Shown: in pieces, positions 29,758-63,870 of the stretch
Layout of the letters: each line of letters opens with the position of its first letter
How positions within the stretch are numbered: the stretch's first letter is position 1
Position numbers and translations under genes: made by a program
Assembly (NCBI GenBank): GCA_029227035.1
Contig: JAQXZD010000099.1
Span: forward strand, 1 to 64,000
Direction: 5' to 3'
From: Lachnospiraceae bacterium
Lineage (GTDB): Bacteria; Bacillota; Clostridia; Lachnospirales; Lachnospiraceae
DNA length: 64,000 bases
Notes under the pieces: generated by a model
Seen by the model: the letters and a program-made list of their open reading frames with translations, nothing else
What the model was told of the DNA's origin: nothing
The model's database searches: none

Positions 29758-29956
29758 AATTTATTCACAGCCACCACACAGGCAGGCCGCAGACCAGCTG
29801 CGCTGTGCGCATCTGCCGCTGCTTTGCAGCTAATGTCTGAGGCTGTGTGGTGGGTGAATTCTATTCACCAGGCAGGCGAAAGTATAAATTCGTCTTACAA
29901 GCAAGCTTGACGTCCGAATTTATACTTTCACTTGCCGCTGTGAATAATTCAAATTT
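29758..29956. repeat. Composite palindromic element (two nested hairpins)
   Basis: This fills most of the gap between the phosphofructokinase gene and the next ORF. Hairpin A pairs CCACCACACAG with CTGTGTGGTGG. Hairpin B pairs GGCAGGCGAAAGTATAAATT with a near-identical inverted copy (two mismatches). Outer ends are TATTCACAG and CTGTGAATAATTCAAA, and a GGTGAAT/ATTCACC palindrome joins the two hairpins. No ORF of note. Confidence 0.7.
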
Positions 29957-30027
29957 TGCTGGCATTTTGTCGAATTTTGTAGTACCATGGTATTAGACAA
30001 ATGAATGTTATGAGGGAGGTTGGATAT

Positions 30028-30318
30028 ATGGGGAAAAAAGCACAGGGGCAGGTTTTAATCGAGTGCCCGAATACGGTTTTTTATCTTTATGTCAGTGATG
30101 AGAGGGATTTGTCCAAGATTGCGACTTTCACCAGGAATCTGAAGAAAATCAGAGAGATTGGGTTAAATGACATATATATGTGGTGCAACCGGCAGGGGAT
30201 TGCCTACCGCACCAGATTCCATTACAGAAAGGAATTTTCCCTGTTGGAGAATATGATTGCCTACATACGGTATTCCCAGCAGAAAATCAAATATCAGGTA
30301 CTAATCGGGATGGCTTAA
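30028..30318 (+). CDS. Small hypothetical protein
   Basis: A 96-aa basic protein that I do not recognise. It has alternating strands and helices (VLIECPNTVFYLYVSDERDLSK, then NLKKIREIGLNDIYMWCNRQG), no membrane segment and no signal peptide. GGGAGG with 8-base spacing supports the ATG at 30028, not the upstream 30001. A terminator follows directly, so it is a single-gene unit. Confidence 0.6.
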   Translation: MGKKAQGQVLIECPNTVFYLYVSDERDLSKIATFTRNLKKIREIGLNDIYMWCNRQGIAYRTRFHYRKEFSLLENMIAYIRYSQQKIKYQVLIGMA

Positions 30319-30349
30319 ACCGCTGTGCACTGCACAGTGGTTTTTTCGG
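30317..30349 (+). terminator. Intrinsic terminator after the small ORF
   Basis: ACCGCTGTG / CACAGTGGT stem (one G-U pair) followed by six T. Confidence 0.8.
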
Positions 30350-30361
30350 GTTAAGTAAATG

Positions 30362-30621
30362 CTTGTAAAATCACCTGAAAACAATTGTCTTGTATTATTA
30401 TGGGGATTCTGCAGGAGCGTATCATGTTTTGTGAAAGACCAAAAATCGACAGTATCAGGGTTCCATTGAATAATGGTAATAGCATAAAAGTTGCAAATTA
30501 TCAGTAGCTATATGAAATCGTTCCTGATGCAAACTCGATTTTTGACTTGAACAAAATATGATATGTTACTGCGGAAGGTTTTGATTTTAATGTAACAATT
30601 GTTTTCAGGTAATTTTGCAAG
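30362..30621. repeat. Dispersed palindromic element, copy 1 (full length with outer terminal repeats)
   Basis: A 260-bp element ending in 27-bp terminal inverted repeats (25 of 27 matching; core ACCTGAAAACAATTGT / ACAATTGTTTTCAGGT). Inside are nested arms shared with copies at 54.3 and 63.7 kb: CTGCAG/CTGCGG, ATCATGTTTTGT/ACAAAATATGAT, AAAAATCGA/TCGATTTTT and GTATCAGG/CCTGATGC. It occupies the intergenic space before the S66 peptidase gene. Confidence 0.8.
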
Positions 30622-30656
30622 AGACTTTTAGTTTGTGTTTGTAAAGGAGATAAAAA

Positions 30657-31679
30657 GTGAGATATCCGGAATTTTTGAAGGAGAACGGAACAATCGGGTT
30701 TGTGGCACCGTCCTTTGGGTGTGCGACAGAGCCGTATTATACAGCATTTCAGAATGCAATGACAAAGTTTAGACAGATGGGATACAGGATGAAGACGGGA
30801 CCGAACTGTTTTCTGGATGAGGGAATCGGAATCAGCAATAAACCGCAGTTGTGCGCACAGGAGTTAAATGACAGCTACTGTGATGAGGAGAGTGACATCC
30901 TGATTTCCTGCGGCGGCGGAGAACTGATGTGTGAGATTATTCCCTATCTGGATTTCGCGCGTATAAAAGCCGCAAAACCAAAATGGTATATGGGATTTTC
31001 GGATAATACAAACTTTACGTTTCTGTCTGCCACAATCTGTGATACGGCGGCCATTTATGGTCCCTGCGCAGCCGCCTTTGGCATGGAGCCGTGGCACAAG
31101 TCACAGCAGGATGCACTGGACCTTCTCTGCGGAAAAACGGAGCAGGTGCATAATTACGACATGTGGGAGAAAGAATCCTTAAAGGATGAGGAGCATCCGC
31201 TTGTTCCCTATAATCTTACGGAGCCGATGCAGATTCGGTATCATAAGGGAAAGGAAGCGCACCTGACAGGGCGGCTGATTGGAGGTTGCATGGATTGTCT
31301 GGTGACTTTACTTGGAACGGAATATGATAAAACGAAAGAGTTTGCAGAGCGTTATAAGGAGGACGGAATCATCTGGTTCCTGGAAGCCTGTGACTTAAAC
31401 ATTATGTCCATCCGCAGGGCAATCTGGCAGATGAAGAATGCCGGATGGTTTTCTTATGTAAAAGGCTTTTTGATCGGAAGACCTCTCTGTTATGGGGAGG
31501 AAATGTTTGGCATTGATCAGTACCGGGCAGTGACGGATCTTCTCGCAGATTATCAGGTTCCGATTCTTATGGATCTGGATATCGGGCATCTGTCACCGAT
31601 GATGCCGGTGGTAAGCGGGGCATTGGCAGAAATTAACGCAGTTGAAAATTCTCTGGATATACGGTATATTTGGAGGTAA
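30657..31679 (+). CDS. S66-family LD-carboxypeptidase / MccF-like peptidase
   Basis: Cytoplasmic serine peptidase of 340 aa. The nucleophile serine is in MGFSDNTNF (about residue 112); the Glu is in WFLEACD and the His in IGHLSPMMP. The family trims muropeptides (LD-carboxypeptidase) or inactivates microcin C-like aminoacyl nucleotides (MccF). The size favours the MccF-like subgroup, but both roles are possible. It starts with GTG, supported by AAAGGAG. Confidence 0.88.
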   Translation: MRYPEFLKENGTIGFVAPSFGCATEPYYTAFQNAMTKFRQMGYRMKTGPNCFLDEGIGISNKPQLCAQELNDSYCDEESDILISCGGGELMCEIIPYLDFARIKAAKPKWYMGFSDNTNFTFLSATICDTAAIYGPCAAAFGMEPWHKSQQDALDLLCGKTEQVHNYDMWEKESLKDEEHPLVPYNLTEPMQIRYHKGKEAHLTGRLIGGCMDCLVTLLGTEYDKTKEFAERYKEDGIIWFLEACDLNIMSIRRAIWQMKNAGWFSYVKGFLIGRPLCYGEEMFGIDQYRAVTDLLADYQVPILMDLDIGHLSPMMPVVSGALAEINAVENSLDIRYIWR

Positions 31680-44594: not shown

Positions 44595-44599
44595 AAGAA

Positions 44600-44697
44600 C
44601 AGTTATATGACTGACGGAAGTGGAATCAACCACATGAAGTATAACAGTAAAAGCCGACCGTCTGGGCGCCATGCCCGGTCGTGTTGGCTTTTTATTT
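44600..44697 (+). promoter_or_regulatory. ZTP (pfl motif) riboswitch with terminator
   Basis: The conserved parts of the pfl/ZTP aptamer are present: GACTGACGG, a GTGG...CCAC hairpin, closing GTTATA/TATAAC pairing, then the junction GCCGACCGTCTGGGC (consensus CCGCCUGGGC with one change). The second half overlaps a terminator (AAGCCGACCG ... CGGTCGTGTTGGCTTTTT). Binding of ZMP/ZTP should relieve termination and turn on the AICAR-consuming genes downstream. Confidence 0.9.
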
Positions 44698-50821: not shown

Positions 50822-51140
50822 GAAACAGAGAATCAAATGCGATGAACAGGCATACGAACCTTAAGAGAATTCTTTCAGAGAGCTGCCGGATGGTGTGAGA
50901 CAGCAGATATCTTTTGGCGACATCCCCTGCAAGCAGTACACTGAAACGACGGCCGAAGAGCTGACTGTCGGATTAAGTCATACCGGAGTCCCACCGTTAC
51001 AGGGGAGCTTATTGATACGGCTGAGCGCCGGAAGATAGGGCAGAGTGGTCATATTTTATATGGCAAGCAAAGTGGTAACGCGGAAGAATTGATTGGCTTT
51101 CGTCTTTGACAGTTGATGTTAAAGACGAAAGCTTTTTTGT
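50822..51140 (+). promoter_or_regulatory. T-box riboswitch with intrinsic terminator
   Basis: A tRNA-sensing leader. Stem I contains the AG-bulge/distal loop region AGAGAGCTGCC...GGTGTGAGA. The T-box sequence AAAGTGGTAACGCGG is at 51069-51083. The terminator GCTTTCGTCTTTGAC/GTTAAAGACGAAAGC with T run ends it (51096-51138). The TGGT element pairs with a tRNA ending A-CCA; in the specifier region GCGACATCCCC the codon ATC (Ile, A73) would fit, while GAC (Asp, G73) would not. Uncharged tRNA should allow expression of the downstream transporter. Confidence 0.85.
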
Positions 51141-53548: not shown

Positions 53549-54243
53549 AGGAATTTTGGCAGAACTCGGTATTTTTTGGAGTGTTTATCAGTATTCTCAC
53601 TTATGAGATTGGTGTGCTTATCAAGAAAAAATGGAATGTTGCATTGTTTAATCCACTTTTAATTTCAATTATTTTAATTATTGTTTTCCTGCAGTGCTTT
53701 CATGTGGATTATGAGACTTATGAGTCCGGAGCAAAATACCTGTCGTATTTTCTGACACCGGCCACTGTGGCGCTGGCGGTGCCGCTTTACGAGCAGATAG
53801 AGCCGCTTAAGAAGAACTGGAAAGCAATTATGGCAGGTATTCTGGCGGGAACGCTGACTTCCGCAGTCTGTGTGCTGGTTTTTGCGCTGCTGTTCGGATT
53901 CAGCCACAAGCAGTTTGTGACACTGCTTCCGAAGTCCATTACCACGGCAATCGGAATGGGAATGTCGGAAGAGCTGGGAGGAATTGTGACCATCACGGTT
54001 GCGTCGATTGTTGTGACCGGACTTTTGGGGAACATGTTTGCGGAAACTATCTGCAGGCTGTTTCATATTACGGATCCGGTTGCCGTGGGAATCGGGATCG
54101 GTACGGCATCCCATGCGATGGGAACAGCAAAGGCTATGGAGCTGGGTGAGGTGGAAGGTGCCATGAGCAGTCTCTCCATAGCAGTCTCGGGACTTCTCAC
54201 CGTCGTGGTAGCCATTGTCTTTTCCAATATATATCCTCTGTAA
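53545..54243 (+). CDS. LrgB-family membrane protein
   Basis: A 232-aa partner of the LrgA-like protein with seven or eight membrane segments. It has the conserved LPKSITTAIGMGMSEELGG and a GIGTASHAMGTAKAMELGE block near the C-terminus, diagnostic of LrgB. The pair follows a possible pyruvate/peptide permease, so a shared role in uptake under starvation is conceivable but unproven. Confidence 0.92.
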   Translation: MKEFWQNSVFFGVFISILTYEIGVLIKKKWNVALFNPLLISIILIIVFLQCFHVDYETYESGAKYLSYFLTPATVALAVPLYEQIEPLKKNWKAIMAGILAGTLTSAVCVLVFALLFGFSHKQFVTLLPKSITTAIGMGMSEELGGIVTITVASIVVTGLLGNMFAETICRLFHITDPVAVGIGIGTASHAMGTAKAMELGEVEGAMSSLSIAVSGLLTVVVAIVFSNIYPL

Positions 54244-54278
54244 CAGAGTATGGGAGACTGCGAAACTGCATGAAAGTA

Positions 54279-54505
54279 ATTGCCTGTTAAAAATTGTACC
54301 ATTTCACAGGAGAGCATCATATTTTGTTCAAGTCAAGAATCGAGTTTGGACCAGAAACGATTTCACATAATTGCCGACAATTTGCAACTTTTACGCTATT
54401 ATCTCACGTGGAGCACTTTGGTCCTGTCGATTCTTGGCCTTTCAAAAACACGATGCCCCCCTGCGAAATATTACTAAGAGTGCAAGGCAACTACTTGATG
54501 GAGTA
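54279..54505. repeat. Dispersed palindromic element, copy 2 (inverted orientation)
   Basis: Shares with copies 1 and 3 the arms ATCATATTTTGTTCAAGTC, AAGAATCGA, GGACCAGA and the core TTGCAACTTTTACGCTATTA, here in the opposite direction. Outer TTGCCT/AGGCAA are possible ends. Fills the gap between lrgB and addB; the ORFs called here are inside the repeat. Confidence 0.8.
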
Positions 54506-54551
54506 CCGCAATCGTTGATGTAGCAGAATATGGGAAATGAAGGAGAGAGAG

Positions 54552-63487: not shown

Positions 63488-63512
63488 TAAGTCTCTTTTT
63501 AAAAGTGTACCC

Positions 63513-63647
63513 AAATGAATTTGCATATTCTATTGCAGACACGCTTTCGCTCTGATCGCAACGTAGCGGTACTAAATTCGTAAAAAACACTCATTAAGTA
63601 CCGACGTTGCTTTACGGTCTGCAATTAGAATAGCAAAATTCATTTTT
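63513..63647. repeat. Palindromic element of a second type
   Basis: Long arms AATGAATTTGCATATTCTA-TTGCAGAC pair with GTCTGCAATTAGAATAGCAAA-ATTCATT. Inside, GCAACGT-ag-CGGTACT pairs with AGTACCG-ACGTTGC. No T run, so a simple terminator is unlikely. It follows the foldase gene. Confidence 0.7.
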
Positions 63648-63674
63648 ATGAACGCAACAGTAAAATGGAGTTAG

Positions 63675-63870
63675 GTATTTCACAGGAGTGTATCGTGTTT
63701 TGTGAAAGGCCAAGAATCGACAGGACCAGAGTTCATTACCTGAAAATAATAGCGTAAAAGTTGCAACTTGTTGGCAATTATGTGAAATCGTTTCTGGTCC
63801 AAACTCGATTCTTGACTTGAACAAAATATGATGCAATTCTGTGAAATGATGCAATTTTTAGTAGGCAATC
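63675..63870. repeat. Dispersed palindromic element, copy 3
   Basis: Arms TTTCACAG/CTGTGAAA, ATCGTGTTTTGT/ACAAAATATGAT, AAGAATCGA/TCGATTCTT and GGACCAGA/TCTGGTCC nest around an AT-rich core with GTAAAAGTTGCAACTTG. Same orientation as copy 1. Confidence 0.8.

Follow-up and report, generated by a model that had tools for sequence, protein, structure and literature searches.

We describe a family of dispersed hairpin elements that, in the genomes sampled, is almost wholly restricted to one genus of Lachnospiraceae and whose arms have been rewritten many times without loss of complementarity. Carrier species differ almost completely in the sequence of the element but share its hairpin shape, an indication that the fold, probably as RNA, is what matters. 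The explanation that we favour, by a narrow balance of probability, is that of a MITE-like, non-autonomous mobile repeat with a selected folded top strand, probably RNA, whose shape would be read by a protein acting in trans. Hairpin repeats scattered over a genome are commonly regarded as debris of transposons; in this family individual copies stay paired as their sequence turns over, so that the conserved trait is the fold itself.

Three copies lie in the analysed window, i.e. the whole stretch of 64,000 nucleotides under study (Table 1). Copy 1, just upstream of a gene for an LD-carboxypeptidase, is a nested palindrome of 260 bases. A sequence-only reading of the window had proposed a full-length element here, and its coordinates proved exact: the + strand folds with -103 kcal/mol (z = -13.2; matched by none of 200 shuffles) and the - strand with -73 kcal/mol (z = -9.3). 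The 27-nt ends of this copy (CTTGTAAAATCACCTGAAAACAATTGT / ACAATTGTTTTCAGGTAATTTTGCAAG) form 25 Watson-Crick pairs out of 27, as that reading had stated, and one of the two exceptions is G-U. The paired substitutions that it had quoted between copy 1 and copy 3 (at 63.7 kb) are all present, and the window contains exactly three occurrences of the unpaired core that it considered conserved, TAGCNTAAAAGTTGCAA, at 30480 (+), 54382 (-) and 63750 (+), against a chance expectation of 0.06. The three copies do share this core; their completeness differs, since the ends of copy 2 have partly decayed and copy 3 is devoid of the outermost arms, with no outer helix exceeding the shuffled level.

Table 1. 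Position of the hairpin elements and of their parts within the window
Feature	Position	Strand	Remarks
Copy 1, full-length element	30362..30621	+	Nested palindrome; own-genome and model matches; no counterpart at the orthologous place in five relatives
Outer arm of copy 1, 5' side	30362..30388	+	Partner 30595-30621, 25/27 Watson-Crick
Outer arm of copy 1, 3' side	30595..30621	+	Partner of 30362-30388
Conserved core of copy 1, modelled by R2 (inner stem A, tandem G-A loop, stem B, asymmetric loop, stem C, apex)	30426..30557	+	133 bits, the top score among 91 genus matches
5' GA of the tandem G-A internal loop, copy 1	30433..30434	+	GA in 86/90 copies
3' GA of the tandem G-A internal loop, copy 1	30549..30550	+	GAG or GAA in 77/90 copies
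Unpaired apical word TAGCATAAAAGTTGCAA	30480..30496	+	Subfamily-conserved; three exact window matches, 0.06 expected
Copy 2, between lrgB and addB	54259..54490	-	Ends partly decayed; BLAST match to copy 1; core 54321-54450
Direct repeat, low-coordinate flank of copy 2, target-site-duplication-like	54239..54255	.	15/17 identical to ~54519-54535; coordinates derived from offsets
Direct repeat, high-coordinate flank of copy 2	54519..54535	.	Partner of 54239..54255; coordinates approximate
Copy 3, inner stems and apex only	63677..63848	+	Outermost arms missing; 187 bits with R1; core 63697-63827

The window also carries other repeats and structured RNAs. A distinct dispersed repeat of ~165-190 bp (63488-63673) with inverted ends AAATGAATTTGCATATTCTATTGCAGAC / GTCTGCAATTAGAATAGCAAAATTCATTT abuts the 5' side of copy 3 and has three further copies of 93-97% identity in the same genome (C71 twice, C112). 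A palindromic repeat of ~190 bp at 29760-29960, whose ends resemble AATTATTCACAGC / GCTGTGAATAATT, is also present in C28 and C115 of this genome and in G039. Both a T-box leader (50833-51110) and a ZMP/ZTP riboswitch (44597-44674) score above the Rfam gathering values.

The window copies are a small sample of the family. BLAST revealed about nine copies and fragments in the genome of origin (2.4 Mb, 121 contigs, 86% complete), where eight copies with a full core were counted in addition to fragments. A covariance model built from 12 copies (R1) reached far more distant members of the family elsewhere in the genus, and a second model (R2), covering the shared 132-nt core, identified 91 copies of an element of ~200-270 nt in 8 of the 62 genus genomes searched. 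The carriers hold between 1 and 28 copies each (G000, 8; G005, 1; G010, 15; G014, 14; G016, 14; G027, 10; G055, 1; G099, 28). Among 397 genomes of the wider Lachnospiraceae, searched by scoring few candidates per genome so that rare distant copies may be missed, the sole additional carrier was G221, with one copy, and its searched relatives yielded no more. This patchy presence, together with subfamilies that are mostly private to a genome, fits repeated amplification and loss.

No Rfam family matched any of 12 loci at E values up to 1, and none was found over the element in the window. Searches of phage and plasmid collections gave no match, nor did a search of viral contigs with the arm pattern. 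The apex pattern produced a single viral match, which was unconfirmed by the model and within chance expectation. This match adjoined an apparent tRNA, and the 'anti-tRNA' reading of the apex derived from it was dropped, as the motif is not kept in the G016 and G014 copies. Most pattern matches in genome contigs beyond the Lachnospiraceae assembly fell in unrelated phyla and resemble chance matches, and locus L022 showed no match to the model.

The subfamilies have unrelated arm sequences and one shared layout, which comprises, from the outside in, an outer helix, stem A, a tandem G-A internal loop, stem B, an asymmetric internal loop, stem C and the apex. The outer helix measures ~8-27 bp; for most copies of G000, G014, G016, G055 and G099 the distance between its end and the core is ~28-38 nt, and for G027 it is ~53 nt. 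Stem B measures ~10-14 bp and stem C 8-9 bp. The asymmetric loop opposes 5' C(A/U) to 3' (A/U)RAY, and its two sides agree (A with A, U with U) in 88 of 91 copies, an agreement that may reflect only a few ancestral changes. Words of the apex are partly conserved (UUCCA or CUCA 3' of stem C; CUAUCCG or UGAAAUC ahead of stem C'), and a small hairpin, weakly supported, is placed there as well.

The pairing of this layout is retained through extensive substitution. In 32 diverse copies, 28 of the 34 pairs have changed on both sides, and the number of cells with two-sided change, which are non-independent events, is 243 compared with 79 in shuffles. The covariation score of 0.566 (shuffled, 0.189) was reached in none of 500 shuffles, and slid pairings scored at most 0.166; the 94-copy alignment gave a like result, which leans towards the model because that alignment was fitted to it. 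To allow for the relatedness of copies, changes were counted by parsimony on a tree: the pairs of the model account for 116 compensatory events, as against 5-12 for slid pairings and 3-22 for random re-pairings. The covariance model and statistical check called for by the sequence-only reading thus support its suggestion that the folded form is selected; the outcome that would have spoken against it, three copies in all and unsupported covariation, did not occur.

The same holds within single genomes. The outer arms of G016 copies vary and nevertheless remain complementary (GCTTCCCGC/GCGGGAAGC, TGCTTCGCACT/AGTGCGAAGCA, GCGCCTCGCT/AGCGAGGCGC, AAACTTCCCAC/GTGGGAAGTTT and others), unlike the fixed end of a transposase substrate. 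This genome and its sister G014 share orthologous copies with flanks that are mostly 89-99% identical. When one decayed pair was omitted and tandem duplicates were counted once, the stems of these copies differed by ~1% and the unpaired core by ~8%, i.e. stems changed about sevenfold more slowly. Stems that change so slowly mean that folding is maintained once a copy has inserted, and debris would not behave in this way.

The sequence-only reading had named an RNA hairpin or a DNA cruciform as the selected form. A double-stranded cruciform predicts equal numbers of G-U and A-C cells, and an excess of G-U means that one strand is picked. G-U is the commonest class of non-Watson-Crick cell in the stems (125, with 26 A-C), and of the changes out of Watson-Crick pairs that were counted on the tree, 33 led to G-U and 15 to A-C; the bias is weak in G027 (6:5) and G010 (6:3), and the opposite strand is equally stable in several subfamilies. 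The G-U excess and the kept tandem G-A favour a fold of one strand, either RNA or single-stranded DNA, over the double-stranded cruciform, which is thereby the disfavoured part of the earlier proposal. Because G-U is tolerated, RNA is preferred over single-stranded DNA, and the selected folded strand is probably RNA. A conserved promoter was not observed, and the promoter-like sites of copy 1 do not rise above those of shuffled sequence.

Comparison with related genomes shows that the family is mobile. Copy 1 is absent from five relatives with the same gene order, between a terminator-like hairpin and the LD-carboxypeptidase gene, and copy 2 from nine relatives that share the order of lrgB and addB; these empty sites identify both copies as insertions. 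As to target-site duplications, direct repeats of 10-17 bp, at matching positions just beyond the arms, flank copy 2 (17 bp, 15 identical), L002 (11 bp) and L013 (10 bp), and none is clear at the remaining copies. Repeats scoring at least 10 accompany 12.6% of copies and 1.5% of mismatched flank pairs, some of these matches being internal to the element. A transposase with matching ends did not appear in the examined loci, nor did an autonomous relative or a larger transposon ending in these arms. By simple ORF calling the copies are intergenic, in sense (20), antisense (18), convergent (20) or divergent (6) gene settings, and no common theme was seen among the neighbouring genes compared. Several G010 copies lie just downstream of Rpn/PDDEXK_2 genes, and a general link to such genes was rejected: G005 has none over threshold, and matches in the other genomes do not adjoin copies.

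Several structural variants were recorded. G016 carries tandem duplicates of the element, and in G010 the 3' arm is tandemly repeated next to a single 5' arm (L045 1627-1787, period 47, 3.4 copies; also L048 and L051). Broken copies mostly retain the 3' arm and lose the 5' one (L012, L015, L018 and the orthologous sites of L134 and L158), the reverse being seen only in L009. Two apparent clean empty sites in the comparison of G014 with G016 were rejected, as a remnant of the 3' arm persists at the orthologous sites. Positions 537-586 of L134 hold a ~45 bp repeat that recurs many times in both G016 and G014. Elements of two different classes form divergent pairs, 0.1-0.9 kb apart, in G099 (L114-L120), G027 (L160 and L161) and G010 (L166).

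The family is short, non-coding, multi-copy and inserted between genes, as MITEs are; it departs from them in the terminal inverted repeats, which in MITEs have a fixed sequence common to the autonomous element and here differ within one genome. It also has traits of a structured RNA family, with compensatory changes beyond relatedness and strand-specific tolerance of G-U. Both halves of the earlier suggestion, a MITE-like element or a structured RNA, are therefore supported, and they are not alternatives. Copies have inserted between genes in either orientation, some of them with direct repeats of 10-17 bp at their flanks. In the mechanism that we propose, the + strand would be transcribed, either by read-through or from a promoter within or close to the element, and the RNA would fold into a long hairpin whose internal loops are conserved. 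A protein acting in trans may recognise this RNA by its shape, which would let the family spread, and copies that lose the fold would disappear. A bolder version, to which we give little credence, makes each copy an independently expressed functional RNA, belonging to a new structured family that spreads in an RNA-dependent manner, as a bacterial counterpart of SINEs, with recognition of shape and not of ends and with direct repeats of variable length.

The selected form might instead be a single-stranded DNA hairpin, recognised by a transposase or recombinase during replication or transposition. RAYT enzymes are believed to make such use of REP sequences, and the dispersed palindromes with one-sided features, the divergent pairs in some genomes, the evidence of insertion, the orientation unlinked to genes and the stability of tandem G-A in DNA as well would all suit a similar system. 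G-T in DNA hairpins is, however, less tolerated than G-U in RNA, and G-U is the commonest exception; moreover, G016 copies occur in both orientations on both chromosome halves (the halves being assumed), with no visible bias towards a strand of replication. We regard this explanation as unlikely, while giving it real weight.

A further rival is an ordinary MITE moved by a transposase acting on double-stranded DNA, in which the arms of long palindromes correct each other by template switching and covariation is a side effect. Such switching is an established process in quasi-palindromes and could imitate covariation, and the terminal inverted repeats, flanking direct repeats, intergenic location and absence of coding capacity are those of a MITE. 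Yet correction of this kind ought to remove both the tandem G-A and the asymmetric loop, and both persist; nor does it predict a G-U bias. Neither the variability of the outer arms within one genome, by which no end sequence is conserved for a transposase, nor the lower divergence of orthologous stems relative to unpaired bases, nor the missing transposase in the loci examined agrees with it, and we consider it improbable. A cis-acting regulatory or terminator structure for adjacent genes is more doubtful still: the copies are always intergenic, copy 1 lies just upstream of a gene, and fewer of the flanking gene pairs are divergent than convergent (6 vs 20), but antisense placement is about as frequent as sense (18 vs 20), no theme was seen among the neighbours compared, relatives manage without the element at the same loci, and no terminator-like site (a GC stem followed by a T run) is found in 30250-30700.

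The mobile repeat with a selected folded strand, probably RNA, remains our preferred explanation, and the long-standing question of whether repeats of this kind act as RNA becomes directly testable. A suitable carrier exists in G016, whose complete single-contig genome of 3,449,685 bases has 14 copies and whose sister species holds mostly orthologous ones. The family is at the same time a natural data set for separating selection on RNA from correction of DNA palindromes.

Several known systems share part of these properties. The mobile/repeat sequence candidate MRSC-65-2, from a survey of structured motifs, consists of UYCCGG repeats with more than 20,000 examples (PMC11109978); like the present family it is a structured motif with many copies per genome, inconsistent gene orientation and possible action as DNA or RNA, whereas the elements described here are limited to a genus, are longer and have a fold that outlives the sequence. 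Among the bcr repeats of the Bacillus cereus group (bcr1-bcr18), about half are transcribed, some are MITE-like and some have conserved RNA structure (PMC3446304). They are likewise intergenic repeats of Firmicutes with MITE-like traits, in an unrelated lineage; this comparison is with their published description and not with their sequences. QMITE2 of Coxiella, a prokaryotic MITE, gives stable hairpin transcripts (PMC10969869). Terminal inverted repeats, flanking direct repeats, intergenic location and a stable hairpin are common to such MITEs and to our family, the transcripts being a feature of QMITE2 (PMC10969869); here, in contrast, even copies in the same genome have different end sequences, which stay paired, the direct repeats are clear in three copies, and no parent IS was found in the loci examined. 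REP sequences are palindromes of 20-40 bp with GTAG or CGTC tags (PMC3733652). REP/BIME systems with RAYT resemble the present family in being dispersed palindromes, sometimes in inverted pairs, but the element described here, at ~200-270 nt, is far outside the REP size range. Finally, this family could be among the palindromic candidates listed by a survey of the human microbiome (PMC8040213).
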